From Rhodotorula mucilaginosa (Eukaryota > Basidiomycota > Microbotryomycetes > Sporidiobolales > Sporidiobolaceae), in the NCBI GenBank assembly GCA_034406715.1, contig CP137869.1, forward strand, positions 1,116,001-1,180,000: 64,000 bases of DNA, written 5' to 3'. Both the position numbers and the translations under genes were made by a program. Below the pieces are notes generated by a model that was not told where the DNA came from, did not search any database, and saw only the letters and a program-made list of their open reading frames with translations. This document shows positions 1 through 38,135 of this stretch, in pieces (the stretch's first letter is position 1; each line of letters starts with the position of its first letter).

Positions 1-2102
1 GGCGCCTTCCTGGGCGGCCCTCCTTCCTTCGTCGTCGACGTTGGGGTTCATCTCGCTGTGCTGCCTCTGGTACCTCTCCTCGGCCTTCTCGTCCAACACC
101 GGCAAATCCATCCTCACGCGCTTCCGGTACCCGGTCACCCTCACGTTTGTCCAGTTCGCCTTTGTCGCAGGCTACTGCGTCCTGATCCTCGCGCTCCGGG
201 AACGGATCGGCAACGCCGCGAGCCACCATCAGCAACACCATCCGATCAATCCGAACGGCACCGGGAACGGAGGACTGTCGAACCGCCGGCGGAGGTCGAG
301 CATCTCGACTCTCGGAGGGTGGGGGATCCGGAAACCGTCGAAACACATGTTTCACGGCACCTTCATGATGAGCCTCTTCCAGATCGCCGGACACGTCTTT
401 TCCAGCATGGCCATCGCTCGCGTACCAGTCAGTACAGTGCACACAATCAAGGTGAGCCCCGTCTCTGTCGATTGTGCCCGGACGACAACGCCCGCTGATC
501 CGAATTCTCGCAAACAATGCAAAGGCTCTCTCGCCCCTCTTTACCGTCCTTTCGTATGCCGCCCTGTTCGGCGTCCGATACAGCTCGGCCACCTACGTCG
601 CACTCCTTCCGCTCACCATCGGAGTCATGCTGGCTTGTTCGTTCGACCTCCGGGCCAACGCCATGGGCTTCCTCTGCGCCCTCGGGTCGACCTTCATCTT
701 TGTCGCGCAAAACATCTTCTCGAAGAAGCTGTTGCCGAAAGAGAACTCGTCCATCGCCCGAGGCGAGCTCAAAGCTAGCACGGGTCCGGGCGCCGGTTCT
801 GGCGGAGGCGGGGCCGCCAAGCTCGACAAGCTCAACCTCCTGTTCTACTCGTCCGGCATGGCCTTCTTCCTTATGATCCCGATCTGGCTCTACTCCGACG
901 CGTCGGCCCTCTTCTTCTCGGCCCCGATTCCGACTCAACAAGCAGCAGCAGCAGCCGGTTCGACATCGTCGCTCCTGTTCTACTTCTTCGCCAACGGTTC
1001 AGTCCACTTTGCGCAGAACCTCCTTGCCTTCTCTATTCTCGCGAGGACGTCCCCCGTCACCTACTCGATCGCCTCGCTGATCAAGCGAATCGCCGTGATC
1101 TGCATCGCCATCGTCTGGTCACGGCAGCACGTTTCGCTGATTCAGGCGGTCGGGATGACGAGCACCTTCGGTGGACTGTGGATGTACAATCGGGCCAAGA
1201 GCGACGTCGACAAGGGGGAAAAGAAACGCGTGCAGGTCGAGAAGCGGCACGACCTCGAACTGCCGAGCACGGTGGGAGACGCGAGAGCGCTCGACGGGAC
1301 CGACACGCCGCCATTGCAGCAGCCGCAACAGTCGATGATGGGGCAGCAGTACTACGGCCGGAGGGAAGCGAACGGCTCGGCGTATGCTCAAGGAGCTGCC
1401 AGCGTCTCGGGGGCGGACGGGCTCGCAAGTTCGAACGCGTTCACGTCCTCGGCTGCGCACCATCCAGCGGCTGCACCGCCACCGCCACGAACGCATCACG
1501 CAGCTCCGGTTCACCCTTCGCCGACTGTCTACTCGCCGTTGGACCCCTTCGACAAGGCAGACCCGTATTCGCGCACCGGACAACTCCCTGCACACTCGAT
1601 CAGCCCACTCGGAGTCGCCCCCTCCTCTTCGCCTTCCCTGAACTCCTCGCCGTATCCATCGAACGCCCGCTCCGAGTCTCTCGCTCCCGAAGGACAGTCC
1701 GCCTCGTTCGCCACCGCCGGAGAGCCCATGTCTCCGAGACCAAACGCCTCTCCACAGGCGACGGATGGGGCTGTGGCCATCCGAGCGGGGTATCGCGGCG
1801 ATGCGGCGCGGAACGACCGCGGGAGCTCAAGTCGAAGCAGGTCGAGACCGGGAACAAACTCACCGGGGACCAAGTCGGTCGGACCGGCTGCAGCGGACTA
1901 TCGCCCTCACGCCGGCCCCGGCCAACACCCGCCAGCGTCGGCGCGAGGTGGTGCCGCCTCGGTTCCAACCTCGTCTCCTGCGCATCTCTATTCGAGCGCG
2001 AACGGAAATCCGTACGGACCGGGACGGATCATGCCGCCAGAGTCGCTGTTTGCACCGATCGCCGCGGGCGGCGCATCCGCGACTTCCGGAGGCTATCGAT
2101 AG
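1..2102 (+). CDS. SLY41: SLY41-like triose-phosphate-type membrane transporter (5' end cut by window)
   Basis: Probable multi-pass transporter of the nucleotide-sugar/triose-phosphate (TPT/DUF250) family. Yeast Sly41 acts in the ER/Golgi; the substrate here is unknown. The reading frame is open from base 2 with no ATG, so the N-terminus lies upstream of the window. Visible family signatures are TGKSILTRFRYPVTLT, a VSTVHTIKALSPLF join, SYAALFGVRYSSATYVAL and AQNIFSKKLL, followed by several hydrophobic helices up to about base 1190. One intron (452-524, phase 0, GTGAGC...AAAG) is needed to join VHTIK to ALSPLF. After the last helix comes a long Ser/Pro/Ala/Gly-rich tail of about 300 residues ending at TAG 2100-2102; Saccharomyces Sly41 has no comparable tail. 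The family call is firm; the choice of SLY41 over other TPT-family members rests on the motif pattern only. Confidence 0.85.
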
Positions 2103-2254
2103 AGCGACCGGATGCGTTTGTGTGTTTGTACAGTTCTTTCCGCCTCTCGCGCATCATTTAGACGTATAGGTCATCATTGTCATCCTTTCTTGAACTTGCT
2201 CATTGCGATGTTGCTGAGAAAAGGAGAGTCTTCGGGGAAGAGATGCTTTGCGAA

Positions 2255-4150
2255 TCAGACTGCAACGTTCTTGGAGAGTGCCCGCATAAAGAGCCGAGGG
2301 TTTCCATCTGTGGCGACCAGCCGCTCCAGAAAAGAGGCGTCGTCGACGGCTGCGAGCGGAAGCACAAAACTGGTAAGCGGGTGCGTGCTAAGGGTTGGCT
2401 GGTGCAAGGGGGCCTCGGACTCGCCTTCGCGTGCGCCTCGCCATCCCTTCACAAGATCGACGATGCCCATCGCTTCCTTGCGATTCAGTCGGTCCGGGAG
2501 GAGGAAAGGCTTGACGCCGCTGTTGAGGATGGACGCATAGGTCGAATATTCGGGGACGTCCCCCCGTTCGTAAACGGAAGTAAGCGGATCGGATCCAGAT
2601 TTTGGCGAGTTTGCGCTCAGGAAGTCGGACAGAGGGGGACTAGATGCAAGATATCTGGAGGACGGGGCGAGGACAACGGCGCCCTGGGCCTGGTAGTGGC
2701 CAAGTAGACATGGGGATCAATTCATCTGCTCCACACTCCGCATAGAGTCGGGGCAAGTACGCACGAAGTTCAGCTGGCCAGCGGTGAAGTCGAGCAGCAT
2801 GCGCGGGATGACCAGATGGTACGGGTGCAGCCGCTCGTACGACGGGTCCGTGTAGGCCGACAGGGAGAAGAGCGACTGTGCGTGGTCGATCGCTAGCAAA
2901 ACAGGGCGCCTGCGGGTCGACGCGTAGGAACGTGAGCGATTGGAACGGGAGGAGCACGAGTCGGCCTGTTGACATACTCTTTCTGCTCGGCAAGCTCCTC
3001 CATGACGGCTTCGAACACGGCAGTCGTGAGCTTGTCGTCGCTCATGCCCGCCTTGGCCAGCTCTTCGAGACTCTTGCCAGATGCAATCTCCTTCTCGCCG
3101 AAGACACGGGCACGCGAGGTCTTGAGAGATTTGAACGCCGCCTTGTTGGCGGAGGAGAAGCGCTGGAGGAGATCGGCAGCAAGTCCCGGCTGCTCAAACA
3201 GAGCGCGGTCGCTCGAGTACGAGAATGCCGACGAAGAATCGACAGTGGCGGTAGCTGACGGCAGGTAGAGGACGACCCAGCCGTTCGAGTGGGCATACGA
3301 CGCGGCTTGGACGAGCAACATAGTCTTTCCGCTTCCTTCTGGTCCAGCTGCAGTAGTAGATCCGGTTTAGAGACGGTGTGCGGACAGTGGGAGTCTCAGA
3401 GGAGCTTACCGAGGATGAATCGGGAGGATTCGCTTGATTCGGTGCGAGCCTGGTCGAGCACTCGAGCCAATTCGACGGTGGTCTCGCGCACAACGCTTGC
3501 AGGCTTCGAGGTCATGGCGTGCTGACAGAGCGAATGCAGATCGAGTTAGCTCGGGGTCGAAGCAGGGTGGGTTGAAAAGCAGATCCTCACGAGTTTCTGC
3601 AGCGATTGGGGCAGGGACAACGTCTTCAGAGCCTGCAGAGCTTCGTCCGGGTACGCCCTCGGTGTGCCGATTGCGCTCTTGGACACGGTCTCCTGCAAGG
3701 CGAGTGTCAGGGGTAGGCAGCGATGACCGAGATGTCCTCGCCGAGACGCACAGGGTGCAGAGTCGCAAGGTCTCGCAAATCCGGTCGCGGCAAGGTCACT
3801 TCTGCGAGCGCATTCGCGCTGCCGGTCGCAGCGTTCTCCTGTGAGACGAGCACACGCGGAACATGATCAGCTGTGCCGAGTGCATCCGGAGACAACATCG
3901 CACGTACGTCGCTGTTGCCGGCAGCCATCTGCTTTCGGCTGGCAAACATGGCTGCTAAGCTATTCGCTGTGGGCATCGCACCATCCACGGGTCAGCCTGG
4001 CGGAGTCGTCGCAGCGTTCTCCCCTTTTTCGTTTTCATCGAGCGTGAAAGATGGCTCACGCTTAGGCGGGAGTCGGACAGCGCTCGTAGAGGCGAAGCCC
4101 CGGGATGACACCGTCTTGGCAACTTGCGTAGCCATATTCAGTGAAGACAT
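2255..4150 (-). CDS. DAP3: Mitochondrial small-ribosomal-subunit protein mS29 (DAP3/RSM23)
   Basis: GTP-binding protein of the mitochondrial small ribosomal subunit. The start ATG (4148-4150) gives a basic, Ser/Arg-rich presequence (MSSLNMATQVAKTVSSRGFA) suited to mitochondrial import. The Walker A loop GPEGSGKTMLLVQAAS is formed across an intron near 3350, and the Walker-B-like LLAIDHAQSLFS lies near 2880. The C-terminus (FLERLVATDGNPRLFMRAL) matches the end of DAP3 proteins. At least five introns are needed. The first (3967-4059, GTGAGC...CCCACAG) is 93 bases, a multiple of three, and holds an in-frame TGA; others start at GTGAGGATC near 3590, GTAAGCTCC near 3410 and GTGCGTACT near 2770. 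The join near 3700 is the least certain. The downstream gene is PMP24 on the same strand. Confidence 0.88.
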
Positions 4151-20745: not shown

Positions 20746-22526
20746 ATCAAGATGTCAGCGGGGTTTTGGATGGTCACGGCGACGAACAGACGGAAGTTGG
20801 ATGATTGATCTTGGCTTTCAACCCATGTCTTGTTCTCGCTTGAGACGAGTGGCCTCTGCACCGCCAACGTGTGTGAACGCTCTTGTCAGTCTTGTCTGCT
20901 GACTTTTGATGCCACACCTGGACGCTGGACAATAGGAGGGGTAGTTCCGGCACGTTACACCTGGTACACCCAGTCCGCCACCGGCACTTCAAGCTGCCTT
21001 TCGGAGTTGTCAGAGCGTTCAAGTTTTGGAATTGGTTGGAAGAGAGTTGCCAGCCGGTGGCAAATTGTGCGCAGGTGGGTAGATTGAAATACACTTAGAA
21101 TCCCTGGTTGCCCCTGGTTACTAGTGATTTTTTTTTGGCCAGCATCACCCTTTGCGCAATGAACCTTACCTGTTTATCGTTGTTCCATTGAGATGGATTG
21201 GTCCCTGCATCACAGATTCTCTGTAGGCTAGCCAGGTTGCCAAAGAGCAATGCTTTTCAGGAGCAAGTTAAGACTTTCCGAGGTCCAATGTCTCTGATCC
21301 ATTTCTCCAACAATTCCTGCCAAAAGTACCATATCTATGGTTGCAAGGTGGAGGCTTCTGCACCCTGCAAATCTGTCTACATTGCAGTGGGCTAGTCCCT
21401 GCTGTGAGAGAATCCGTTCTTCAACTGCTCTCCTGCCTCTTGCAGTGGTGTGCTGGTAAACTGACAGGAGCTTTTATGTCTGTGGTCACAGTGACCTAGG
21501 TGTGAGTTTGCTTCCACACGGAAAGGGCAGAGCTAACTCCACCTCGGGCAAGAACGTTCATCAATGTGTTTTGACAGGTTGCTGGCTTCTTGAGGCAGGT
21601 AGTGCTCTTGCAAGGGGCAACAACTCAAGTCATTAGAAGGAGTGCCAGTGACACCCAAAAGTAGAGAGACAAAGTGAGAGAGAAAGCCAGAGAGAGGTAC
21701 TTGCGATGGAACACCAAGCTCAAGTAAAACGCACATGGAGACCACCTGGAGGCCAGCCCAGCAACTCCTGTCTGACTATAGACCTCTGAGCATGTACTAT
21801 GTTCTTGACAGGTGCCCACACCTCTGTTGATGACTCACTGTTGCCTGTGACCATAAGCTTGCCTACAGTGTTTCCGCCAAAGCGAGAGGATGAGGAGGCC
21901 CAAAGAAAAACCTGCTCTTTGACTCCTATATCTTGGGTTTGCAGGAACAAGGAGGGTCTATGGTATGTAGAAAGAAGCAGTGGAGCTAAGGTCAATGGTC
22001 AAACAGAAGGGGGCTAGGAGGGAGAGAGAGGGTCTGTTGCTGGTGAGTAAAGCAAGGCAAAACGCCCTGAACTGACAAGGATGCGGAGGACTGGCATGTT
22101 ATAGTGTGAGAGTCTTGTGTGGATGACTCTTATACGGTATGCACTCTTGGCCACAGCCGGTGCAAGTGATCCAGCTCCAGCGGAGGATCCAAGAGTTGGC
22201 AATGCAGCACAGAAGTATGGCCAAGGGCTGCAGCTTGCTCAGAGTCCTGAGCAGCTGGGTGTTTCCCGTCATTTGAGATCCATGAATGCACTGTCAGGCA
22301 TCCCCAAGAGCTTCTGGAGCTCCCATGGTAGCACTGCTCCTCCTGCTGGCACTGGGAACACGAGGTGAAGCACTATCAGTGAGGAGAGAGGGCAAGAGAG
22401 GAGGTGATCCTTGCTCCAGACAATTCTTGCCGTTCAGTCTGCTTGGCAAAAGACGTCCTCAGTGGACATGTGCCCTTCGGGGCACATGACATGGTAGAGT
22501 GCTCTAACCCATCCCTCACAAAGTCA

Positions 22527-22590
22527 AAGGTAGATAGATAGATCCTGTTTCAAGTCATATTGAGCTGTAAGAGCCCATGTAGTCAATAAA
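22527..22590 (-). repeat. LINE 3'-end fragment, inverted (TATC-tailed family)
   Basis: Starts with TAGATAGATAGAT (the tail, read on the other strand) followed by TTTCAAGTCATATTGAGCTG and AGCCCATGTAG. On the minus strand this is the ATGGGCT...ATGACTTGAAA...ATCTATCTA 3' end shared by many copies at 28-37 kb. Confidence 0.7.
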
Positions 22591-22732
22591 GTCAAAGGTC
22601 CTGGAACAGAGGAAAGGCATATAGAGAGGTGCTATTCGAGTCAGGAAAAGGCCCCACTTGACCTGCTGGCATACATTGCTCTTGCCTGCAACAATCAACT
22701 CCAAGTTTGTATTTGTTTGAACTCAGAAAATA

Positions 22733-22778
22733 CAGTGAACGCAAAAAAGGTTGCAGGTCGGCCGGAGTTTTGCCGCTT
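22733..22778 (+). repeat. Left terminal inverted repeat of the DD34E transposon
   Basis: 46 bases. The outer block CAGTGAACGC is identical to the right end, and TTGCAGGTCGGCCGGA inside is also identical; about three mismatches in total. Preceded by TA. Confidence 0.9.
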
Positions 22779-23024
22779 TCCGCCTCTACACCAGATCTTT
22801 TTAGGCTGTATGTTTACCTTGAGGGGGTCGTGTAACATCTACTAAGGCCCACGGTAGGCTTCTAGGGATTCCGCCGGCCGTGTGAGAGTAGAGAGCGACC
22901 GCTGTTCTCGTTGTGGGCGATCCCCCGCTGAAGTCGCCTCGGGACTTGAATTTCTCCTCTTCTACACATCTTTGCACAACACACGAGCCATACGGATCTC
23001 CAAGTGTAGCTGCTGAACAGCTAG

Positions 23025-24854
23025 CGTCGCCATGTCTGGGAGGACGACGACCCGCTGCTGGACGAGGACGAGGATCAACAAGACGCGTCCGATGTCAGCG
23101 CGGACAACCGTACGCTCAGAACATCTCCTTGACCTGGCAGCGGCCCCCGAGCTGACAATGGCTTGCATCTTGCTTGGCGACAGCTCTTTGCCCGTTCTGC
23201 GATCGCCCGCTCCCTTCGAATCTCCTCCCTCAACTGCAGCACGATCATGACCACCTCATGAACCTCCCCGAGGCGATCTTCAAGCCGTCGTTGTACAACC
23301 AGCAGCACGTCAACTTGCCGGTACAACAGACGGCCCTTTTTTGCCGGCGCCACGAGCTCCAGCGGACTGTCTACGACCAGGGCGTCGCTGCCGGCTACCC
23401 CACCACGTACGACTTTGACGAGCTTGACAAGTGAGTTCTTGCTTCTACGGGATTTGTCTTGATGGGTAATGCAAGGAATTGACATACCCTGCTGCGTACT
23501 CAGGCGTGTCCGACTCCTGCTGCCCAAGATCAACCGCTTCGGGACGAGCCGGCGAGATCGTCGTTTTGGCGAGAATGGAAGGACGAGGCGCCTCCGCAGC
23601 CATTCGGGAAAGACGTCGCGTCGCTGAGCGCAGCTGGACATGCGCGATTGTAATTGCTCTCGCGTCGACTTGGCTAGTGAGTCTCGACCTCTTCCAGTTG
23701 TCATCCGGATCGAATCTTGTGAGCTGATTGACTTTTCGCGCAATGACAGCCTCGGGAGTCTCAGTGCCGACATCATTCACCCACTTGCTCACGAGCGCTA
23801 CTGCGGTAGCCTCTACAAGGACCCAATTCATGAAGTCACCGACGCGGTCCCCCACCACCGAGTAGAGGACTTTACCTCAACCGTCATCGCCGGCGAAATC
23901 GCCTGCGAGTTTGTCATGGAAGACCTCGGACTGTCGAGTAGGACCGAGGCTAAGGGCGTCCTGGTCCGCTCGGCCGACTACGGACAGCTCGTCTTTTCTG
24001 AAGCAGTCGACGACGACCCGCCTCCCGCGACCGACTCGGATCAGCTGCAGCGCACCGATGGCAGCAGCAGCAGCAGTGACGGCGAAGACGGCGACGAGGA
24101 TCGCGAACTTACCCCGTTGTCGGGTTTCGAAACTCCGGCGAGCTGCTACGAATCGGAAACTGTCGAGCCGGAGCCGTCTACGTCGAAGGCGGATCGCCGT
24201 CGCAGTGGGCCGGTGGACTACCGCGCTCTGAACAGCGGGTCCGACTACCGCAAGACCAGCACTGCCACCGCCATGTCGGGGAAAAGAGGGACGAAGCGGT
24301 CTGCTGCCCCTCAACCGACCATGAGCAAGCCTCAGAAGCGCGAGAAGCTTTCGAACCCGTCTTCGGAACCCGGCAACACCACCAGCAGGAGCAAAGTTTC
24401 GACCCTTTCCAACGACAAGCCCAGCACGTCCAAAGCCGGAAAGTCCGCCGCTCCGCAGCCGATGCAGCTGCGTCTGCCGAGGGCGGTAGCCCGGCCCTCG
24501 ACAAGCGCCAAGGCTCAAGAGACCGTCGAGAGCGAAGCGCACAGCAGCAGCAGCGACGATGACGACGAAGCAGCAGCAGCGGGTCGCGCAACGAAGGTCG
24601 CAAAGCAGCAAGCGCGAGGGCGCAAGAAGAAGAAGGAGAAGAAGCCGAGGAAGAAGACGCTGAGATTGAAAGGTTGGTCTTCCCTCTCGACCATGACGCC
24701 TGGTGCACTGAGCTGACAGCTCTCCATGACAACAGCCGACGTACAAGCCCTTTTCGACACGGATCCCGCCGACACCGACAGTTCTGGCGAGGCTTCTCCA
24801 GATCCCAAACGCTGTCCACGAAAGAAGGCCGACGTGCTCCCGACCTCGATCTAG
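23025..24854 (+). CDS. RTC4-domain-like protein carried by the transposon (start unresolved, possible frameshift)
   Basis: Resembles the RTC4-like domain (yeast restriction of telomere capping 4) found in many basidiomycete proteins; molecular role unknown. The N-terminal exon is acidic (WEDDDPLLDEDEDQQDAS) and joins by intron 23110-23183 to a Cys pair and the domain: LCPFCDRPLPSNLLPQLQ, ALFCRRHELQRTVYDQG and AAGYPTTYDFDELDK. An intron from 23431 leads to RVRLLLPKINRF. A later exon gives FWREWKDEAPPQPF and, over intron 23650-23749, HERYCGSLYKDPIHE and VEDFTSTVIAGEIACEFVME, the domain end. A basic, Ser/Asp-rich tail with Lys-rich KKKKEKKPRKK follows to TAG 24852-24854. RINRF and FWREW are in different frames: either a one-base shift within 23504-23649, or a later acceptor at 23556. 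No in-frame ATG was found for the first exon. It may therefore be decaying. Confidence 0.6.
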
Positions 24855-24911
24855 ATTCAGGCGGCATACTCGGGAGGCGGCGCACTCGACCGCCAAGCAA
24901 ATACGGCCAAG

Positions 24912-26255
24912 ATGTCCACAAGCGCGACCTTGCCGCAGATTCACGAGGCCATCTCGACCCTGACAGGCATCTTGCAGGACGAACTCGACTTCCACTCGCT
25001 CAAGTTCCTGATCCTGCCGAGCTCGAGTAGCGCAATCGGATCAAGGGCGTTCTCGTCGCTCGTGACATCCGTCGAGCTTGACCACTTTCGCGACTCGCTG
25101 CGGGGCATTGCGGCGAAGGGCACCGTTCTCTTCCAGCTCCCCCGCCCGTCTCTCCTTCCTCCGCCGGTAAGCTGGCCCCCTTTGAACTCTTCTCCTGCCT
25201 CGCAAGATGCCGCCTTCCTTCTCGTGTCCGTACACTGACGGTGAGCTGTTTTGCGCTGCCAGGTCTCGAACGGAAAGAAAGCGCCCGGCGCTGCGAAAGC
25301 TGGTGCGAACGGCTCGACGAGTCTCGCTCAGTCGAGTGATTTGACCGAAAAGGCGCGCATAAGGTCTCTTATTTCGATGCTCTAGCAGATTGCTGATGTG
25401 TTGCGGTTTTTATGCTTTGTGATTCCTTACTCTCGTTTCTGGCGGGTTTTCCCTACGGGGTTTTTCCTCCCGCGTGTATACTCCCCTTCCCTCGCTTCTG
25501 TTACCCCTCCCCCAGTTAGCTGGTTTGGCGGCTCACTCTAGTTAGTGGCCCCAGTCGACATGAGTCTCTTCTAGGCTCGAACGACTTTAAACTTGGAATT
25601 TATCCTATCCTATCCTATCCATGTGTTGCGGTTTGCTGCAGATCACCGCTTGGAAGGAGAAGATCAAGGAGCTTTACCAGGTCGGGTCCTGCCCGGAGCA
25701 CCCTACGGCGGCTTGCATGATCCAGGGCCAGCATCACTACGACATGCTCGACGAAGCTCGTCTTGACGTGCTTGCCAAAGCTCTCGTATGCTCGTCTTCC
25801 TCCCCTGGGACTCGCCCACGCTGACTTTGCCTTCTCTATTTTCTCAGGCCGAGGAACGTCACGGCGCGAATCTGGAGTCTGGCCTGATACATCCCTTCTT
25901 CGGACCAAAGCGTGCCATCGGAGCGACACCCGACACCGACGCCGGCTCAGGCTCCACCTTGTACAGCATGCCGGGCAAGGCCAAGACGCCGGACATGATG
26001 CAAGCGCTTCTGGCCTTGCAGTCGACAACGATGATGCTGCAGCAACAGCAGCAACAGCAGCACCAACAGCAGCCGACCCAGCAGCAACAGCAGCAACAGC
26101 ACCCGCAGCCATCTCTCGGTGGCGCTCCTCCGTCCGAGCCGGTCTCGGAGGAACTCGTCCAGTTCGCCGCGCAGCATCACCTCGAGCCCGCTACCGCCAT
26201 GACAATTTCGGAATACGGCATATCCTTGCATGAACTCACGCCTACTTGGAACTGA
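24912..26255 (+). CDS. Uncharacterised transposon-borne protein (CPEH-motif, Gln-rich tail)
   Basis: No named family recognised. ATG 24912 opens exon 1 (24912-25166; ILQDELDFHSLKFLILPSSS), then exon 2 from 25263 (SDLTEKARIR), exon 3 (25642-25785; WKEKIKELYQVGSCPEHPTA, ACMIQGQHHYDML) and exon 4 (25848-26255). The Trp...Cys-Pro-x-His...His layout recalls hypothetical proteins that I remember as multiplied in mushroom-forming fungi. The last exon has a CAG/CAA-coded Gln run and ends at TGA. The intron between exons 2 and 3 holds a LINE fragment, and with GT-AG borders the two exons are out of phase by one base, so this join is unresolved. Another open frame directly downstream (YLELNEDMEDTKKMWADLEG, to about 26370) looks like a lost C-terminal helix region. 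It lies only 57 bases after the RTC4-like stop, so a joint transcript is possible. Confidence 0.5.
25410..25620 (+). mobile_element. 5'-truncated LINE copy (TATCC-tailed family) in an intron
   Basis: 211 bases ending in GACTTTAAACTTGGAATT plus (TATCC)n. It is flanked by the direct repeat ATGTGTTGCGGTTT (25396-25409 and 25621-25634), a 14-base target-site duplication left by target-primed reverse transcription. No coding part is left. The same 3'UTR occurs inverted at 29385-29540 and 34195-34340. Confidence 0.88.
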
Positions 26256-26607
26256 ACGAGGATATGGAGGACACGAAGAAGATGTGGGCGGACTTGGAGG
26301 GGACACCAGGTCAACTGAAACCCTTCCTTCGCGCTCTGAAGTCTCATTGCGCGGGACTGGAGCAAATGTAAGAGTCCCGCTGCCGCTTCCTCCCCTCCTC
26401 AATCCTTCCTCCCTTCCTTCCCCTTCCGCCCTGCGCCTTGATCAGCTTTCCTCGCTTTTCCTTTTCCGTGTTGTCATGAAGATGTGCGTGATGTACAGTC
26501 TGTCCTTATCCGCATTTGCTGTTGCTTGCAAAAGATATGTTACGCTTGTTATACAGAACAGTCTACAAGGTGGGCTTCCCACGAAGCCATTGAGCGTCCT
26601 GCGCAGT

Positions 26608-27785
26608 TTAGATAATCCAACCCGCATAGCGAAACAGCGCCCGCGCCAGCTTTGGTCCAATCTGCATCGCTACATACTCAATGGCCTCGCCGGGTTCAAA
26701 CTCTGCAAAGAGGTCGGCCTCGGCAGCGAGCATGCGTTTGGCTGCTCGAGTAATCCGACAAGAACCATGTCAGTTTTGGGACGCGTCGCTGGAAGCAAAT
26801 TCGGCGCACTCACTCCAGCCAAACGCGCCCTCGATTGCGTTGAATTCTGGGCATCGAGCGGGAATAAAGACGAGCAGGACGCCTGCGATCCGCGTCCGGA
26901 AGACATCAGCCCTCAGCCGCACGCGAAAAGGGAATTGAGAGCGCATCAAACTCACCGAGAGCCTGCAGAGTCAATGAGAGGAGCGCACTTTTATGTATTG
27001 AACAATTGTCCATGACGATGACCGAGTTCTTTCCGGGGTAGGGCTCGAGAAACGGGGACTGAGGGTGGGAGCGAGTCAGCAAGAAAGAGGGCACGGGATC
27101 AAAGGGAGGAGCCGAGACGACCTACCAAATCGTCAGGGACAAAGTCGTAGAACGACGAAGAATTGAACGCGCCCTCGACGGTCCGCGTGACCAGCATGCC
27201 GTCGATGCCGAGCGCGGCGACCATCAAGAATTTCTTGCCCCGGTTCCCGCTCCTTGCCGCAGCGGCCTGTGTGCCCTTCAAGCTCCATCCGTAGCCGCGA
27301 GAGAAGTCGGTTCGGTCGTGCGCCGTTTCGTCAACGTAGACGAGTTGGTCGGGGGTGAAGCCGCCGTCGGAAATGTAGTCGACGAAATCTTGGCGAGCCG
27401 CCTCGTCTCGCTCGTCCGAGACCCATTGCATCCGCTTGTGTGTAAAGCCCAGTCGCTTCATTTCTGTGTACACGGTGCGGAGGCTGAGTTGCGGGTCATT
27501 GGGTTCGGTGTCGAGGCGAAGGGAATCTGCGATCTCGCGGCTGAAGACGTCGGGGCATGCCTCAAGCGCCTCCTGAATCTGCGCCTGCTGCGTAGATGTA
27601 CCTTTCCTGGGTCTGCTGCGGATGGGTTTGGGCTTGAGTGAGCCGGTCGACTCAAAGCAATCGAGCCAGCAAGCGACCGTTGTCGGGTGAACTCCCATCG
27701 CTGTAGCGGCGTCGGTAACGGAGCTTCCACTATGTACAAGCTCCAGAGTCCGCCAGCGGAGATCTTGAGACTTCGCACGGGGCAT
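26608..27785 (-). CDS. Tc1/mariner/IS630 DD34E transposase, four exons, intact
   Basis: Cut-and-paste transposase expected to bind the terminal repeats and move the element between TA sites. Exons 27126-27785, 26956-27058, 26814-26882 and 26608-26741 join in frame (966 bases) to a 321-residue protein; introns are 55-75 bases (GTAGGT, GTGAGT, GTGAGT donors). The N-terminus has a helix-turn-helix (HSGSSVTDAATAMGVHPTTV) and a second DNA-binding helical segment with basic linker KPIRSRPRKGTS. The catalytic core has YVDETAHDRTD (D152), VIVMDNCSIH (D237) and PEFNAIEGAFGW (E272), with 34 residues between the second D and the E. The C-terminus ALFRYAGWII is typical of DDE_3 proteins. ATG 27783-27785, stop 26608-26610. 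No break is seen, so the element may still be able to move. Confidence 0.93.
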
Positions 27786-27991
27786 TTAAGGTAGCTATAT
27801 GGGTATACGAGGCGGGAAGCGAAGAGAGGAGTTGTGCTTCCGCGGCAGCTCCGACTCGACGTTCGAGCTGCCGATCTCTATCACTACATTGCTGCAGGAG
27901 GGCCAGAGGTGGCTCGTTACCAGAGAATAGATGCTACTGTCCACGATGCTACCACTTTTAGACTTCTACAAGCAGAGTTGCGAAACGGAAA

Positions 27992-28037
27992 AGGCGGCAA
28001 AAATCCGGCCGACCTGCAACCTTTTTCGCGTTCACTG
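27992..28037 (-). repeat. Right terminal inverted repeat of the DD34E transposon
   Basis: Inverted match to 22733-22778; ends CGCGTTCACTG followed by TA. Confidence 0.9.
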
Positions 28038-28641
28038 TATGCAGAGCAAGAGCAACCCACACAAAACTGGTCTAGCCAAAATGGTAAACTTTGCGAAGTC
28101 CAACACACCCACAGCCATGTGGGGAGGGCTGACTGGCAGCGCAATAGTAAATCAAGTCTTTAAGCAGGTGAAGGAGGAACCGGGAGGGCAGGGAGCGACA
28201 GCACAAAATTGGCCACCCACTCACTAGTGCACAGGCAAAGAAAGGACCATCCAGCGTAGCTCTTTATATCTGACAACAATCACCAGACGAGGAGGTCAAT
28301 AATGTGCAGCACTCACAGATGGCCAGATCAATAGATGAATCAAGTTTGAAGTCATATCGGGCTGAAGGAATCTCACACAGACTGCAGGCACTCCACAAAG
28401 CGGGGGAAGCGAGGAGAGGCCCGAAGGAGAAACTGCTCATTGAGACAAGTTGGAGAGGATGGAGGGAATAGGTGAGAGGGAGTGCCTAGGCATCTGTGAT
28501 GGAGGCAGAACTCAACTAGACGCATCATCCAAGGGTGGGCAGTGGAGGGTGTTGAAGTGGCCTGAGTTGGCAAGGTATTGGAGTGTTGCCTACATTACAT
28601 TGCACACAACTTGCTAAGTGTAGCCTTGATTGTTGGAAGTG
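28038..28641. other. Gene-free spacer between the transposon and the LINE array
   Basis: About 600 bases without a supported gene. Includes an inverted LINE 3'-end trace near 28327-28370 (GATGAATCAAGTTTGAAGTC). The rest is not recognised. Confidence 0.55.
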
Positions 28642-31600
28642 CTGAGACCCGCAAACACCTCTTCCTTCACTGCCTGCTCTACACCAACCCGCGTGCGACA
28701 ACATGTTAATTAGATGGATAGATAAATCCGTTAAGTTTGGTCAGTTTCAAGTCATGTCAAGCGAACAAGCCCATGTTTGGATACTCTACAATGTGCGGAA
28801 GCGAGGAAAGGCCCGAGGCGCAGGCAACATCTGCGCTCATCAATCCGGCTGCTTCATCCGTAGCACTTCCGGGCGCAGAGGACAGTGTAGAGGTCTGACC
28901 ATGAGCATCTGTCCCAGACTGTCCAGTTGCTGACAATACAGACAGCCTGATTGTCACCAGCTTCGGCTCTCTCCTACTCAAAGTTGACATTAAGTACGTC
29001 AATCTCTGCACTACAAAAGGGTGATCTGGTCTGCAGCAGCCCAGTCCAAATCAGCAGCAGAGGGAGAGAGATAATTGTTGAAAAGGTGCCGGTTGCTAAT
29101 GCAGTCTATTGCGCAGTGCTGGTCATGGCAAGCGGATTATTCAGGTCAGCAGCAGCTAATGCGGTGGGTTCAGAAGGAAACATACCTTCGACCTGCTTTC
29201 CTGGCTGAGTTGCTATTGTCTGCGTGCTGCGTCCGGCCTGCAATCCTCCCACTGTCCTACCAAACACAATCTAGCCTATCAGAATTTCTGCTTCACTCTC
29301 TCCTCGCTAGGGTATGTTGATCTTGGATGCTGAGCACAGACCCAGTTTTTCTTTGGGCCCTTCCCCACTTCCTCACTTGGTGTAGTAGGATAGGATAGGA
29401 TAAATTCCAAGTTTAAAGTCATTCGAGCCTAGACAAGACTCATGTCGACTGGGGACACTAACTAGAGTGAGCCACCAAACCAGCTACCTGGGGGAGGGGG
29501 TAGCAGAAGCGAGGGAAGGGGGGTATAGTATCCTTGGTCTACATGGGCTTAATAGCTTGATATGACTTGAAACTTGATTCATCCATCCATCCATGCCCTG
29601 CCATCCCAAGGATAGGATAAATTCCAAGTTTAAAGTCGTTCGAGCCTAGAAGAGACTCGTGCCATCCCAATGTCACTGCCATCCCAATGTCACCCACCCT
29701 CCTCACAACCTCCTCGCGGCCTGGGCTTGATTGAACACAGATGTCTGCTGCCAGAAGCCTTGGCGCTTCCTGCAGGCTGGTCTGCCTCAAGGCAGCAGAA
29801 AAGGTGTGGGTACCCCTCCTCCTTTGTTCAATAACTCATGGCACCCGACTCCATGCCATCTTCACCTCTCTTGATGCTTTCCTTCTCTCGCCTCCACTCC
29901 TCGCTCTCGCGCCGCCAGTCGACCTTGCTCACTCGACTACGCACAGGCGCTTGCGATCTCGGCGCCTACAGGGCGCACTTCGAACCGGAACGGCTCCTCT
30001 GCGCGTGCGGTGGCGAGCCGGAGACCCGCAAACACCTCTTCCTTCACTGCCTGCTCTACACCAACCCGCGTGCGACAACATGTTAATTAGATGGATAGAT
30101 AAATCCGTTAAGTTTGGTCAGTTTCAAGTCATATCAAGCGAACAAGCCCATGTTTGGATACTCTACAATGTGCGGAAGCGAGGAAAGGCCCGAGGCGCAG
30201 GCAACATCTGCGCTCATCAATCCGGCTGCTTCATCCGTAGCACTTCCGGGCGCAGAGGACAGTGTAGAGGTCTGACCATGAGCATCTGTCCCAGACTGTC
30301 CAGTTGCTGACAATACAGACAGCCCGATTGTCACCAGCTTCGGCTCTCTCCTACTCAAAGTTGACATTAAGTACGTCAATCTCTGCACTACAAAAGGGTG
30401 ATCTGGTCTGCAGCAGCCCAGTCCAAATCAGCAGCAGAGGGAGAGAGATAATTGTTGAAAAGGTGCCGGTTGCTAATGCAGTCTATTGCGCAGTGCTGGT
30501 CATGGCAAGCGGATTATTCAGGTCAGCAGCAGCTAATGCGGTGGGTTCAGAAGGAAACATACCTTCGACCTGCTTTCCTGGCTGAGTTGCTATTGTCTGC
30601 GTGCTGCGTCCGGCCTGCAATCCTCCCACTGTCCTACCAAACACAATCTAGCCTATCAGAATTTCTGCTTCACTCTCTCCTCGCTAGGGTATGTTGATCT
30701 TGGATGCTGAGCACAGACCCAGTTTTTCTTTGGGCCCTTCCCCACTTCCTCACTTGGTGTAGTAGGATAGGATAGGATACATTCCAAGTTTAAAGTCGTT
30801 CGAGCCTAGAAGAGACTCGTGCCATCCCAATGTCACTGCCATCCCAATGTCACCCACCCTCCTCACAACCTCCTCGCGGCCTGGGCTTGATTGAACACAG
30901 ATGTCTGCTGCCAGAAGCCTTGGCGCTTCCTGCAGGCTGGTCTGCCTCAAGGCAGCAGAAAAGGTGTGGGTACCCCTCCTCCTTTGTTCAATAACTCATG
31001 GCACCCGACTCCATGCCATCTTCACCTCTCTTGATGCTTTCCTTCTCTCGCCTCCACTCCTCGCTCTCGCGCCGCCAGTCGACCTTGCTCACTCGACTAC
31101 GCACAGGCGCTTGCGATCTCGGCGCCTACAGGGCGCACTTCGAACCGGAACGGCTCCTCTGCGCGTGCGGTGGCGAGCCGGAGACCCGCAAACACCTCTT
31201 CCTTCACTGCCTGCTCTACACCAACCCGCGTGCGACAACATGTTAATTAGATGGATAGATAAATCCGTTAAGTTTGGTCAGTTTCAAGTCATGTCAAGCG
31301 AACAAGCCCATGTTTGGATACTCTACAATGTGCGGAAGCGAGGAAAGGCCCGAGGCGCAGGCAACATCTGCGCTCATCAATCCGGCTGCTTCATCCGTAG
31401 CACTTCCGGGCGCAGAGGACAGTGTAGAGGTCTGACCATGAGCATCTGTCCCAGACTGTCCAGTTGCTGACAATACAGACAGCCCGATTGTCACCAGCTT
31501 CGGCTCTCTCCTACTCAAAGTTGACATTAAGTACGTCAATCTCTGCACTACAAAAGGGTGATCTGGTCTGCAGCAGCCCAGTCCAAATCAGCAGCAGAGG

Positions 31601-34600
31601 GAGAGAGATAATTGTTGAAAAGGTGCCGGTTGCTAATGCAGTCTATTGCGCAGTGCTGGTCATGGCAAGCGGATTATTCAGGTCAGCAGCAGCTAATGCG
31701 GTGGGTTCAGAAGGAAACATACCTTCGACCTGCTTTCCTGGCTGAGTTGCTATTGTCTGCGTGCTGCGTCCGGCCTGCAATCCTCCCACTGTCCTACCAA
31801 ACACAATCTAGCCTATCAGAATTTCTGCTTCACTCTCTCCTCGCTAGGGTATGTTGATCTTGGATGCTGAGCACAGACCCAGTTTTTCTTTGGGCCCTTC
31901 CCCACTTCCTCACTTGGTGTAGTAGGATAGGATAGGATAAATTCCAAGTTTAAAGTCGTTCGAGCCTAGAAGAGCCATCCCAATGTCACCCACCCTCCTC
32001 ACAACCTCCTCGCGGCCTGGGCTTGATTGAACACAGATGTCTGCTGCCAGAAGCCTTGGCGCTTCCTGCAGGCTGGTCTGCCTCAAGGCAGCAGAAAAGG
32101 TGTGGGTACCCCTCCTCCTTTGTTCAATAACTCATGGCACCCGACTCCATGCCATCTTCACCTCTCTTGATGCTTTCCTTCTCTCGCCTCCACTCCTCGC
32201 TCTCGCGCCGCCAGTCGACCTTGCTCACTCGACTACGCACAGGCGCTTGCGATCTCGGCGCCTACAGGGCGCACTTCGAACCGGAACGGCTCCTCTGCGC
32301 GTGCGGTGGCGAGCCGGAGACCCGCAAACACCTCTTCCTTCACTGCCTGCTCTACACCAACCCGCGTGCGACAACATGTTAATTAGATGGATAGATAAAT
32401 CCGTTAAGTTTGGTCAGTTTCAAGTCATGTCAAGCGAACAAGCCCATGTTTGGATACTCTACAATGTGCGGAAGCGAGGAAAGGCCCGAGGCGCAGGCAA
32501 CATCTGCGCTCATCAATCCGGCTGCTTCATCCGTAGCACTTCCGGGCGCAGAGGACAGTGTAGAGGTCTGACCATGAGCATCTGTCCCAGACTGTCCAGT
32601 TGCTGACAATACAGACAGCCCGATTGTCACCAGCTTCGGCTCTCTCCTACTCAAAGTTGACATTAAGTACGTCAATCTCTGCACTACAAAAGGGTGATCT
32701 GGTCTGCAGCAGCCCAGTCCAAATCAGCAGCAGAGGGAGAGAGATAATTGTTGAAAAGGTGCCGGTTGCTAATGCAGTCTATTGCGCAGTGCTGGTCATG
32801 GCAAGCGGATTATTCAGGTCAGCAGCAGCTAATGCGGTGGGTTCAGAAGGAAACATACCTTCGACCTGCTTTCCTGGCTGAGTTGCTATTGTCTGCGTGC
32901 TGCGTCCGGCCTGCAATCCTCCCACTGTCCTACCAAACACAATCTAGCCTATCAGAATTTCTGCTTCACTCTCTCCTCGCTAGGGTATGTTGATCTTGGA
33001 TGCTGAGCACAGACCCAGTTTTTCTTTGGGCCCTTCCCCACTTCCTCACTTGGTGTAGTAGGATAGGATAGGATAAATTCCAAGTTTAAAGTCGTTCGAG
33101 CCTAGAAGAGCCATCCCAATGTCACCCACCCTCCTCACAACCTCCTCGCGGCCTGGGCTTGATTGAACACAGATGTCTGCTGCCAGAAGCCTTGGCGCTT
33201 CCTGCAGGCTGGTCTGCCTCAAGGCAGCAGAAAAGGTGTGGGTACCCCTCCTCCTTTGTTCAATAACTCATGGCACCCGACTCCATGCCATCTTCACCTC
33301 TCTTGATGCTTTCCTTCTCTCGCCTCCACTCCTCGCTCTCGCGCCGCCAGTCGACCTTGCTCACTCGACTACGCACAGGCGCTTGCGATCTCGGCGCCTA
33401 CAGGGCGCACTTCGAACCGGAACGGCTCCTCTGCGCGTGCGGTGGCGAGCCGGAGACCCGCAAACACCTCTTCCTTCACTGCCTGCTCTACACCAACCCG
33501 CGTGCGACAACATGTTAATTAGATGGATAGATAAATCCGTTAAGTTTGGTCAGTTTCAAGTCATGTCAAGCGAACAAGCCCATGTTTGGATACTCTACAA
33601 TGTGCGGAAGCGAGGAAAGGCCCGAGGCGCAGGCAACATCTGCGCTCATCAATCCGGCTGCTTCATCCGTAGCACTTCCGGGCGCAGAGGACAGTGTAGA
33701 GGTCTGACCATGAGCATCTGTCCCAGACTGTCCAGTTGCTGACAATACAGACAGCCCGATTGTCACCAGCTTCGGCTCTCTCCTACTCAAAGTTGACATT
33801 AAGTACGTCAATCTCTGCACTACAAAAGGGTGATCTGGTCTGCAGCAGCCCAGTCCAAATCAGCAGCAGAGGGAGAGAGATAATTGTTGAAAAGGTGCCG
33901 GTTGCTAATGCAGTCTATTGCGCAGTGCTGGTCATGGCAAGCGGATTATTCAGGTCAGCAGCAGCTAATGCGGTGGGTTCAGAAGGAAACATACCTTCGA
34001 CCTGCTTTCCTGGCTGAGTTGCTATTGTCTGCGTGCTGCGTCCGGCCTGCAATCCTCCCACTGTCCTACCAAACACAATCTAGCCTATCAGAATTTCTGC
34101 TTCACTCTCTCCTCGCTAGGGTATGTTGATCTTGGATGCTGAGCACAGACCCAGTTTTTCTTTGGGCCCTTCCCCACTTCCTCACTTGGTGTAGTAGGAT
34201 AGGATAGGATGAATTCCAAGTTTAAAGTCATTCGAGCCTAGACAAGACTCATGTCGACTGGGGACACTAACTAGAGTGAGCCACCAAACCAGCTACCTGG
34301 GGGAGGGGGTAGCAGAAGCGAGGGAAGGGGGGTATAGTATCCTTGGTCTACATGGGCTTAATAGCTTGATATGACTTGAAACTTGATTCATCCATCCATC
34401 CATGCCCTGCCATCCCAAGGATAGGATAAATTCCAAGTTTAAAGTCGTTCGAGCCTAGAAGAGACTCGTGCCATCCCAATGTCACTGCCATCCCAATGTC
34501 ACCCACCCTCCTCACAACCTCCTCGCGGCCTGGGCTTGATTGAACACAGATGTCTGCTGCCAGAAGCCTTGGCGCTTCCTGCAGGCTGGTCTGCCTCAAG

Positions 34601-35250
34601 GCAGCAGAAAAGGTGTGGGTACCCCTCCTCCTCTGTTCAATAACTCATGGCACCCGACTCCATGCCATCTTCACCTCTCTTGATGCTTTCCTTCTCTCGC
34701 CTCCACTCCTCGCTCTCGCGCCGCCAGTCGACCTTGCTCACTCGACTACGCACAGGCGCTTGCGATCTCGGCGCCTACAGGGCGCACTTCGAACCGGAAC
34801 GGCTCCTCTGCGCGTGCGGTGGCGAGCCGGAGACCCGCGAACACTTCTTCCTTCACTGCCCGCTCTACGCCACCCCGCGTGCGACCCTCTTCTCCTCCCT
34901 CCGTCTCAAAGCCCCATCGATTGCCTACTTGCTCAGCGACCCGCGCGCGACAAGGGCGACGCTCCGGTTCCTCGCCGACTCGGGCCGCTTTGACTCGCTT
35001 TATTGCCCGCCCTCGGAGAACCCACCTGTTTAGTTTCTCTTTTCTGCTCTGCCCTCCCCCTTTCCCTGGTTCACTCCTGACCCACACCACACTATACCCG
35101 TCATCCTCTTCCAACCTTTTTTCCTGACTCAAAGAGTAGGCCTTTTCTTCGGGCCTTTCCTCGCTTACCCCACTTTGAGTAGTATTTTTGGTCTACATGG
35201 GCTCCTAGCTTGATATGACTTGAAACAAGACTTATCTATCTATCTATCTT
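28642..35250 (+). repeat. Tandem array of composite LINE 3'-end units
   Basis: Five units start with ATGTCTGCTGCCAGAAGCC at 29741, 30901, 32037, 33173 and 34550 (spacings 1160, 1136, 1136, 1377), preceded by a partial unit from 28642. Each repeated unit has, in order: a LINE C-terminal fragment (STLLTRLRTGACDLGAYRAH, then the CACGGEPETRKH knuckle); an abrupt join to an inverted LINE 3' end with GATGGATAGATAAATC; about 500 bases of unknown sequence; and GGATAGGATAGGATA plus the inverted end of the TATCC-tailed LINE. Units are almost identical (single-base differences by eye). Unit length differs through a 24-base microduplication and a 241-base longer linker, the latter in the first and fourth linkers only. 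The array is young, or partly an assembly product. Confidence 0.85.
34550..35250 (+). mobile_element. LINE 3' end with tail, last array unit (TATC-tailed family)
   Basis: The only array unit where the LINE reading frame continues to its natural end. It reads LLCACGGEPETREHFFLHCP, then SSLRLKAPSIAYLLSD, TLRFLADSGRFDSLYCPPSE and a stop near 35033, followed by a 3'UTR (GGCCTTTCCTCGCTTACC, ATGGGCTCCTAGCTTGATATG, ACTTGAAACAAGACTT) and (ATCT)n at 35233-35250. The Cys-x-Cys...His...Cys knuckle is usual at the C-terminus of non-LTR reverse transcriptases. 5'-truncated; no reverse transcriptase core present. Confidence 0.85.
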
Positions 35251-35279
35251 GAATGGCTGGCTGGGAGCGAAGGAAGCAA

Positions 35280-35720
35280 GCAACGATCCCACTTTCACCA
35301 ATTCAACTCGACGCTCTCGCGCCGCCAGTCAGCTCTCACATGCCGATGCACCAGCGCCTGCAACCTCGGCGCGTACAAGGCGCATTTCGAACTGGAACGA
35401 CTCGTCTGCGCATGCGGCAACGAGCCTGAAACACGTGAGTACTTCCTCCCCCACTGCCCTCTTTACGCCTCCCAGCGCGCGTCCCTCCTCTCCTCCCTCC
35501 GACTCGAAAGCTCCGCCCTTGCCTACCTCCTTGGCGACCCTCGTGCAACAAAGGCAACTCTACGCTTCCTTGCCGACTCCGGCCGGTTTGACTTGCTCTA
35601 TTGCCCGCCCTCGGAGGATCCCCTTCTTGAGTCCGTTCTGGCTTGATTCTCCCCACCCCTTTTTGCCTAAGATCCCTCTATGATACCCTCCCAATTCCTT
35701 CCAACTCAGGTTTCCTGACT
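35280..35720 (+). mobile_element. LINE C-terminal fragment, diverged copy
   Basis: Same protein segment as the array (TSACNLGAYKAHFELERLVC, ACGNEPETREYFLPHCPLY, DPRATKATLRFLADSGRFD) but clearly diverged in sequence. 5'-truncated, with a 3'UTR to about 35720. An older insertion of the TATC-tailed family or a sister family. Confidence 0.8.
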
Positions 35721-35734
35721 CAGGAGCGCAGATT

Positions 35735-36335
35735 CTTTCTTCGGGGCTGAGGGAAATTTGTCCTTGACGGAACGGAAGAGACAGCAGGCGGCCGTGTCGC
35801 CGTCGTAGGCAATAAAGATCAGAGGCACTGCTTTGTCATTGAGCTTTGCACAACGGTTGGTGACATTGTGGTAAGCACGACAACTCCAGACCCATGTTAA
35901 CCCGTACAGATTTGCCACACCAGACAGCGGGACATCTCCAGCGAGTGCAGCATGCGGCGACCAGTTCCTGACAAAGACACAGGCGAGAAGCGCCTCTGCC
36001 CAGAGAACTTTGGGTGCTTGAGCCTGATTGAGCAGTGAAATCAGGCGCTCGACGAGGGTCCGGTTGATCCGCTCCGCAACGTCGTTAGCCTGCGGAGAGT
36101 ATGGCGGTGGCATCTCGTGGTGAATCCCGTGTTCGGTCAGGATGTCGGCGCTGGGACCTGCCCGACTCGTTCTCGGCAGATAGATAGATAGATAGCCGCC
36201 TTGAAGCGCTGGCAGGCTCCGTGGATGTCGTTCTTGGGGGCGAGAGCCTGGACCGAGAGCATGCGAGCGTGGTTGTCAACCAATGTGACGACGTAGCGGC
36301 GACCTCCATACGACCTCAAGTTGATCAAGTTCACG
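35735..36335 (-). mobile_element. Ty1/copia LTR-retrotransposon fossil (integrase-region fragment)
   Basis: Minus-strand coding similarity to the integrase part of copia-type pol (PPPYSPQANDVAERINRTLV near 36100). Only this part of pol is present. It is broken, no LTRs are seen, and a short TAGA microsatellite of the kind found at LINE tails interrupts it. Flanked by LINE fragments on both sides. Confidence 0.8.
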
Positions 36336-36340
36336 TCAAG

Positions 36341-36390
36341 TAGATAGATAAATCTTGTTTCAAGCCATCTCGAGCTAATGAGCCCGTGTC
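36341..36390 (-). repeat. LINE 3'-end fragment, inverted
   Basis: TAGATAGATAAATCTTGTTT followed by CAAGCCATCTCGAGC and AGCCCGTG: the TATC-family 3' end read from the other strand, abutting the copia fossil. Confidence 0.7.
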
Positions 36391-36449
36391 AATAGCACAT
36401 GTCAACCTCACCCATTGGCGGCCAACTCCGCGCCATCACGACCTCCCCT

Positions 36450-37018
36450 CCCGGTCCCGATATGACATGAAACAAGACTTATCTATCTATCCTTCACCCG
36501 CTATCACTCGTCGCTCTCACGCCGCCATTCAACTCTCCTCACTCGATTACGCACTGGCGCTTGCAACCTTGACGCCTACAAGGCGCACTTCAAACCCGAA
36601 CAACTCCTCTGCGCTTGCGGCGGCGAGCCGGAAACCCGTGAACACCTCTTCCTCCACTACCCGCTCTACGCCATCCCGCACGCTACCCTCCTTTCCTCCC
36701 TCCGGCTCAAATCCCTCTCCCTGCCTACCTGCTCAGCGACCCGCGCGCGACAAAGGTGACGCTCCGGTTTCTCGCGGACTCTTGGTCGATTTGACTCGCT
36801 TAACTGCCCGCCATCGGAGGATCCGCTGCCTTGAGCTTTGATTTGATTTGAGTCTGTCCATTCCCTTTCACTATACCCACTCTTTTTGTCCTCTCCGCTT
36901 TCTCTGCCCTCCCCATCCTCCCCTTCTATCCGTTCCATCCGTCTGTGCTTCTAGCATTTTTGTCTACCTGGGCTCTTATAGCTCGACATGACTTGAAACA
37001 AGAATCATCTATCTACCC
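36450..37018 (+). mobile_element. Two further LINE 3' ends in direct orientation
   Basis: A short tail copy (CCCGATATGACATGAAACAA then ATCTATCTATCC, to about 36493) is followed at once by a C-terminal fragment (STLLTRLRTGACNLDAYKAH, LLCACGGEPETREHLFLHY) with 3'UTR ending GACATGACTTGAAACAAGAA and ATCTATCTACCC near 37018. The coding part of the second copy has lost frame near 36720 and changed the last knuckle Cys to Tyr, so it is old. Confidence 0.78.
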
Positions 37019-38135
37019 ACCCGTGTGCACGAGCTTGAGAAGCTCTGTCGTCTGACAATCCAACCGCGGAAAGGGATAGATGAATCGCGTTTCAAGTCAT
37101 ATTGAGCTATAGAAGCCCATGTAGACACGTGAGGAGAGGCAATTGGCAGCGCAAGAGAGACGAGTGGAAACGGGTGAAAGCGAGACCGGGTGGAGAGGGA
37201 CAAGTTTGACGAGCAGCGAGCCGGTGACCACAAGCCTGTTCTTGGTGCCGGAGACGCCGCCGACGGGTCATAGAAATTGGCAGAGAGCTTGGCACCTATC
37301 TTTGAGTAGGCGGTAGGGCTGGAAGGCCATTAAAATGATGCCAATTGACCCAGGCCTGCAGTGTATCTTTTCCAGTTCCAGTGCCATTGTAGACTTTGCG
37401 CGCGAACATCCAACAAACCTGGTCAAGGTTGGTGCTGCTCAAGGCAGCATCAGAGTTGCTGCTGGAGGCAGATGCTGGTCTGGTGTTGCTTCGCTTGCCA
37501 GCTTCGGCTTGCTTGGACTCGACTTCATCTTCTAAGTCTCCTCCTTGTTCCTTTCTTTCAAACAGCGCAGACACTCATTTTGGTTGCAGACATACTCCTT
37601 ATATTGTGCCAGCTTGAAGTGACGGTCACACCTTGAGACTTGGCGCACCTTTGGCGGATGTTGCTGGATTCAGTTGGTCAAATTGTAGTAGCTCCCTTGC
37701 CTGAGTCGCCTCTCTTCTTCTTCTTCTTCTTCTTCTTCTTCTTCTTCTGTAGCAATTCACCCGCCTCACTCATACTCTCTTCAAAATCCATGCTTGAGTT
37801 GCTGTTAACCGGCTCTAGCTTGTTCTACAGCTCACTACATGCAACCTGATTTTCCTGACTTGTGGAGCTGCACCAAAGTGTAGCAGTCTGCACATAGAAC
37901 TGCAGTCTGTACTGTCCAAGAAGACAGCACACTTAGCATGAGAAAGGCCGTTCAAATGGTTTTTTTTTTGGCCTGGATTCCATATCCTCACTGTAGAGAC
38001 CAGGGCAGAATCAGCACTTCATGACCTCGGAACCAGGGCGGCCTCAGTTCAGCTGCATGCGAAAAGGAGACACACTAGACGCCGACAAACGCGTTACCGG
38101 AATGTATACGCAATACCTGAACGAGACAACCACAG
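37019..38135. other. Gene-free stretch with LINE tail trace and TTC microsatellite
   Basis: Holds an inverted LINE 3' end near 37073-37130 (GATAGATGAATCGCGTTTCA, AGCCCATGTAGAC) and (TTC)12 at 37713-37748. Open frames have no family signature. The remaining sequence up to the tRNA-Pro gene is not recognised. Confidence 0.55.
37713..37748. repeat. (TTC)12 microsatellite
   Basis: 36 bases of pure TTC triplets, gene-free surroundings. Confidence 0.9.

Follow-up and report, generated by a model that had tools for sequence, protein, structure and literature searches.

To our knowledge, Tc1/mariner elements with several genes are known only from ciliates, and elements of the Tc1 family are usually short and carry a single gene. 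The accessible parts of two reports describe three-gene DD34E Tc1/mariner elements, TBE in Oxytricha and Tec in Euplotes, and report purifying selection on the genes of TBE (PMC7325037, PMC4724952); the first also gives mariner as an element of 1.2-1.3 kb with one ORF and impala as DD37E (PMC7325037). As far as these sources go, TBE and Tec come closest in design to the element that we describe here: both are multi-gene and DD34E, and in Tec one gene lies on the opposite strand. The accessory genes differ, however: TBE encodes a zinc-finger/kinase protein along with one of 22 kD, and Tec a site-specific recombinase, whereas our element has an RTC4-domain gene (gene A) and a gene whose protein has no Pfam match (gene B). 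In the same accounts the ends measure about 80 bp in TBE and 700 bp in Tec and the hosts are ciliates; the likeness that we see is one of design. The Tc1 family, with the fungal impala and Fot1, shares with the element the TA site, the CAGTG-type end and a DDE transposase with a paired-type helix-turn-helix. Pack-type elements, which capture genes between terminal inverted repeats, likewise hold non-transposase genes inside their ends. They typically carry a fragment that closely resembles a host locus, whereas genes A and B are multi-exon, no source was found for B, and A is only 31% identical to the genome's other RTC4 gene.

The RTC4 domain of gene A is shared with yeast RTC4, a cellular gene; the part of the source available to us calls the function of Rtc4 unclear, places the protein in the cytosol and the nucleus and mentions a genetic link to telomere maintenance (PMC6162548). 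In rusts, 45 RTC4 proteins are listed for Puccinia novopanici and 15 for P. sorghi in the accessible sections of a paper that relates them to the DNA-damage response (PMC9370660). Our searches of open-licence papers returned no account of an RTC4-bearing transposon. A search of IMG/VR confirmed 1 locus of 87 stretches, at 28% identity.

The element occupies 5,305 bp (22733-28037) of the window, by which we mean the whole 64-kb stretch of DNA that was analysed (contig C6:1116001-1180000), in a genome of 20.35 Mb and 19 contigs; its features are collected in Table 1. An earlier note on this DNA had proposed inverted ends of 46 bp with about three mismatches and TA on both outer sides, and both proposals hold. 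The ends match at 43 of 46 bases, whereas the best of 200,000 random 46-mer pairs from the window reached 27, which rules out a chance origin, and the 50-nt arms are 94% complementary. As TA makes up 2.25% of the window, TA outside both ends would occur by chance in about 5 of 10,000 cases. TA abuts all three ends found in the genome, the pair being seen once, with the second copy lacking a right end. A search for sub-terminal repeats of the IR/DR type gave nothing significant beyond the ends themselves. The element thus has the terminal inverted repeats of Tc1/mariner but, with its length and three genes, not the usual short, single-gene form.

Table 1. Features of the element and its target site (window positions).
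Feature	Position	Strand	Remarks
TA target duplication, left	22731..22732	.	
Left terminal inverted repeat	22733..22782	+	Same end opens the C14 copy after another TA
Gene A, RTC4-domain protein	23032..24854	+	PF14474 match; broken in the window copy
Gene A, proposed exons (five)	23032-23109, 23184-23430, 23504 to 23649 or 23676, 23750-24672, 24736-24854	+	
Gene B, protein with polyQ stretch	24912..26372	+	No Pfam match; probable frameshift near 26235
Gene B, proposed exons (four)	24912-25166, 25263-25352, 25642-25785, 25848-26372	+	
Dispersed repeat, later insertion in gene B intron (SINE- or LINE-end-like)	25409..25620	+	Missing from the C14 copy
Transposase	26608..27785	-	Exons 27785-27126, 27058-26956, 26882-26814, 26741-26608; paired-type HTH N terminus
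Right terminal inverted repeat	27986..28037	-	
TA target duplication, right	28038..28039	.	

Genes A and B lie head to tail, the first of them beginning about 300 bp from the left end. The transposase, which the earlier note had also placed on the opposite strand, begins about 250 bp from the right end and is read in their direction; therefore, all three genes point inward. The 3 kb of additional sequence that had been noticed inside the ends does hold two genes, but about 0.2 kb of it is a later insertion, the 212-bp dispersed repeat. This repeat ends in a short ATCCT-type run, has a 12-14 bp duplication and looks like a SINE or the end of a LINE; it has many partial copies elsewhere, and those listed, with 40 of 48 candidates scored, sit in repeat clusters.

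The transposase is complete, with an open frame of 321 aa in four exons, and carries D152, D237 and E272 with the 34 residues between the last two that define DD34E, exactly as first read. A Pfam search with residues 1-277 returned DDE_3 (E 4.3e-21) together with several helix-turn-helix and paired-box models, and the one match in a PDB sequence search was the Pax-6 paired domain (E 2.1e-7). Its nearest homologue is P0001 from Rhodotorula sp. CCFEE 5036, with 85% identity over 84% of the query and 92% in the aligned columns of the multiple comparison; this is the one fungal sequence of six homologues, the other five being about 30% identical and lying on contigs of 1.3-1.9 kb. The closeness of P0001 makes a red yeast the likely host of the element. 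From the same Rhodotorula, no gene A homologue was found among the 8000 candidates sharing most words, and the homologue search returned none for gene B. Within the genome under study, the only DDE_3 match among those listed (E <= 0.01, also exon by exon) is that of the element itself, and no transposase remains were found elsewhere.

Gene A had been taken for an RTC4-domain-like gene, and its match to PF14474 (E 4.1e-11, 43.5 bits) lies well above the curated cut-off of 23.7; with the other end of exon 3 the score falls to 33.8 bits, still above it. The choice of this exon end concerns an in-frame stop. Protein P0007 (source 'ena'), which matches the gene A allele of the second element copy, on contig C14, has the same six bases at this stop, and these could serve as an intron start; the stop is a lesion or not depending on that intron start, with the intron reading scoring lower (33.8 versus 43.5 bits). 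Of the three RTC4 matches found in the genome, two are the element copies and the third is a separate gene on contig C8. Aligned over 245 columns, the RTC4 domains of gene A and the C8 gene share 30.6% identity, two introns lie at corresponding positions and in the same phase in the two genes (the second only with exon 3 ending at 23676), and both proteins run on into serine/aspartate-rich, lysine-rich tails. In the C8 gene (C8:804500-808500) this tail is long, disordered-looking and rich in serine, aspartate and lysine. Judged by these comparisons, gene A appears to be an old relative of a cellular RTC4 gene, carried as DNA with its introns; because the two are only 31% identical, any capture must be old. 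A PDB search with the RTC4 part of gene A gave two matches only (E 0.53 and 0.88).

Gene B, described at first as uncharacterised, has remained so, with no Pfam match up to E 1. All eight of its matches in the genome fall in the two element copies, and none of 7895 candidates qualified as a homologue at E <= 0.01, in a search that is weakened by the glutamine runs of the protein. Recent capture of host genes from this genome, which the earlier note had offered as one origin of the extra genes, is therefore not borne out for A, given its distance from the C8 gene, or for B, found only in the two copies.

The second copy starts at C14:239767 and covers positions 1 to 3405 of the element, in four blocks that are 90, 98, 95 and 97% identical to it. 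The match begins at the exact base after TA, its flanks differ from those of the window copy, and it carries gene A and most of gene B before ending inside gene B, where another dispersed repeat begins. Since the left end recurs here together with the two extra genes, A and B belong to the mobile unit. The right 1.9 kb of the element, with the transposase, has no second occurrence in the genome, and the transposase, A and B are thus seen within one unit in one copy only. The proposal of a large DD34E element, flanked by TA and holding two extra genes, is accordingly reinforced for the left end and the two genes, while their association with the transposase is seen in a single copy. The C14 end is 98% identical to the right end of the window copy over 49 bases and 92% identical to its left end, as expected if all three descend from one ancestral end. 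A search of the 20.35 Mb for the terminal inverted repeat with up to three mismatches gave three matches (the left end of the C14 copy and the two ends in the window, which lie 5.3 kb apart in facing orientation), compared with none for a control pattern. No short, transposase-only copies emerged from the search with the ends, every match belonging to this element or to its C14 copy, and there was no sign that the two ends in the window belong to separate insertions, the outcomes that the earlier note had named as fatal to its reading.

Gene A of the C14 copy is interrupted by a 9.4-kb insert (C14:241521-250923), which holds two large stop-to-stop frames of 868 and 1989 codons and is probably a retroelement, since the start of the 868-codon frame matches an integrase core (rve, E 3.8e-10). 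P0007, encoded on a contig of 1,725 bases, passes from gene A into this insert at the same point as in C14 and differs from C14 in places; for this reason, the insertion is probably shared by another isolate. As the 212-bp repeat is missing from the C14 copy and the 9.4-kb insert from the window copy, each copy represents an empty site for the insertion in the other, though not for the element as a whole.

Both element copies are decayed fossils, and gene A is broken in each. In the window, gene A differs in length from its C14 counterpart by 7 bp just past the start codon and by 1 bp within exon 3; both changes shift the frame and thus break the gene. In C14, the gene has lost an intron acceptor in addition to holding the 9.4-kb insert. 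Gene B of the window has a splice donor unlike that of C14, if the proposed end of exon 2 is right, and its probable frameshift lies beyond the stretch covered by C14; in the C14 gene B a splice donor is missing and one in-frame stop occurs. Between the copies, A and B together (689 codons) differ by 30 silent changes at 489.7 sites and 36 replacement changes at 1577.3 sites, giving a dN/dS of 0.36, in a calculation that left out one codon with a stop, gapped codons, exon 1 of gene A, the part of its exon 3 that precedes the frame change, and gene B past 26137. By part, dN/dS was 0.47 for gene A, 0.35 for its domain exons and 0.24 for gene B. When the 66 changes were placed randomly, 18.8 silent codons were expected compared with 28 observed, and 13 of 2000 runs reached a value as high; this test is based on 66 substitutions in one copy pair, and one edge codon of exon 2 of gene B may be intronic. 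Replacement divergence (0.023) equals that of the introns (0.023, 10 of 435 bases) and comes close to that of the 5' non-coding sequence (0.035, 8 of 231), and silent divergence (0.064) exceeds both non-coding values. As replacement sites have changed as often as the introns, constraint is visible only against silent sites. After insertion both copies decayed freely, and the codon comparison gives a weak sign that suggests past selection on A and B while the element moved.

On balance, we consider it fairly probable that the locus is a single three-gene, cut-and-paste Tc1/mariner transposon in which A and B were accessory genes, kept by selection while the element was active. The structure of the element has good support; the accessory role itself is probable, with weak support from the data. 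A Tc1-like element might instead have acquired two adjacent genes in a single accident, without ever benefiting from them, and have moved with them at least once before both copies decayed. This course of events, which we regard as unlikely, would suit the decay of both copies, the finding of just two of them in the search for the ends and the equality of replacement and intron divergence, as well as the short, single-gene form in which mariner is described in the accessible part of the source (PMC7325037), but it sits poorly with the excess of silent changes in A and B over random placement. Nor was a close source gene found in the genome, with A distant from the C8 gene and B at no other locus, so that A and B have either been with the element for a long time or come from elsewhere.

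The remaining alternatives would divide the locus into separate units. Two insertions, or a rearrangement within the cluster, could have set a left end with A and B beside an unrelated right end with the transposase, in a region that is rich in repeats and where further insertions are nested in both copies. This is very unlikely: the search of the genome found only three ends, two of which are oriented towards each other and flanked by TA, no extra end lies between gene B and the transposase, the open frame of gene B continues past window position 26137, where the C14 match stops, and the G+C content is alike in A and B (59.2%) and the transposase (58.5%). That A and B are a mobile unit of their own, nested in a short Tc1 element, is the least probable reading of all. 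No copy of A and B with different ends turned up in the genome, and the presumed edges (22783-23040 and 26365-26620) share no direct 8-mer and one inverted 8-mer, with about 1.1 direct matches in shuffled sequence; with no direct repeat of at least 8 bp between its edges, we rejected such a unit, even though A and B occur in both copies, as if nesting preceded the last move, and a rust genome holds many RTC4 genes according to the available part of the report (PMC9370660), such that the family may spread alone. The three-gene element is best read as a new multi-gene variant, belonging to a Tc1/mariner lineage of which we found no description.

Both copies of the element lie in repeat clusters. 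Among the matches listed, which we tabulated by hand, 17 of the 19 contigs have one cluster of about 1-44 kb each, and none was seen on C17 and C19; the searches scored 40 of 48, 40 of 49, 35 of 35 and 40 of 87 first-look candidates. Added together, the clusters come to about 0.22 Mb (1.1% of the genome). The window cluster (22500-37300) is low in G+C and repeat-rich and shares repeats of at least 55 bp with a single site on each of 16 further contigs; in 4-kb bins, G+C is 52-55% at 20-24 and 28-40 kb, 58% in the bin of the element and 59-64% in the 11 other bins. Within this cluster, units at 29883, 31043, 32179 and 33315 (spacing 1160, 1136 and 1136) look like a tandem array (29883-33508), and the C15 cluster contains eight repeat units in a row, 3326 bp apart (C15:171103-194469). 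In Microbotryum, the accessible portion of a report takes a single gene-poor, repeat-rich region per contig as the putative centromere (PMC5962589), and the clusters here, one per contig, are probably centromeres as well. Because they were found with the repeats of this window, only the second copy is independent evidence on location, and better survival of old copies in clusters would explain this location as well as targeting does.

If the three-gene transposon is the right reading, the transposase would use its paired-like helix-turn-helix to bind the ends (46-50 bp), cut there and insert the element at TA, and A and B would have been accessory genes that selection kept during its active life. 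Gene A may go back to a cellular RTC4 gene that was acquired long ago, introns included. As a guess, the likeliest task of A, possibly with B as its partner, would lie in chromatin or in the DNA-damage response where ends are broken or newly joined, or in helping the element to settle in centromere-like repeats; both ideas derive from the telomere link of the RTC4 family and from the locations of the two copies. More speculatively still, and quite improbably as we see it, Pucciniomycotina may harbour a lineage of Tc1 transposons with several genes, this element among them, for which an RTC4 gene and its partner are standard equipment, used to settle in centromeric chromatin or to calm the break response. 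A fungal Tc1/mariner element with several genes would suggest that this plan arose more than once, and the present element would tie the telomere-associated RTC4 family to mobile DNA in centromere-like repeats. It also offers a testable reason for the numbers of RTC4 genes in rusts: should the Pucciniomycotina lineage prove real, their multiplication would reflect transposon cargo, not an expansion of host repair genes.
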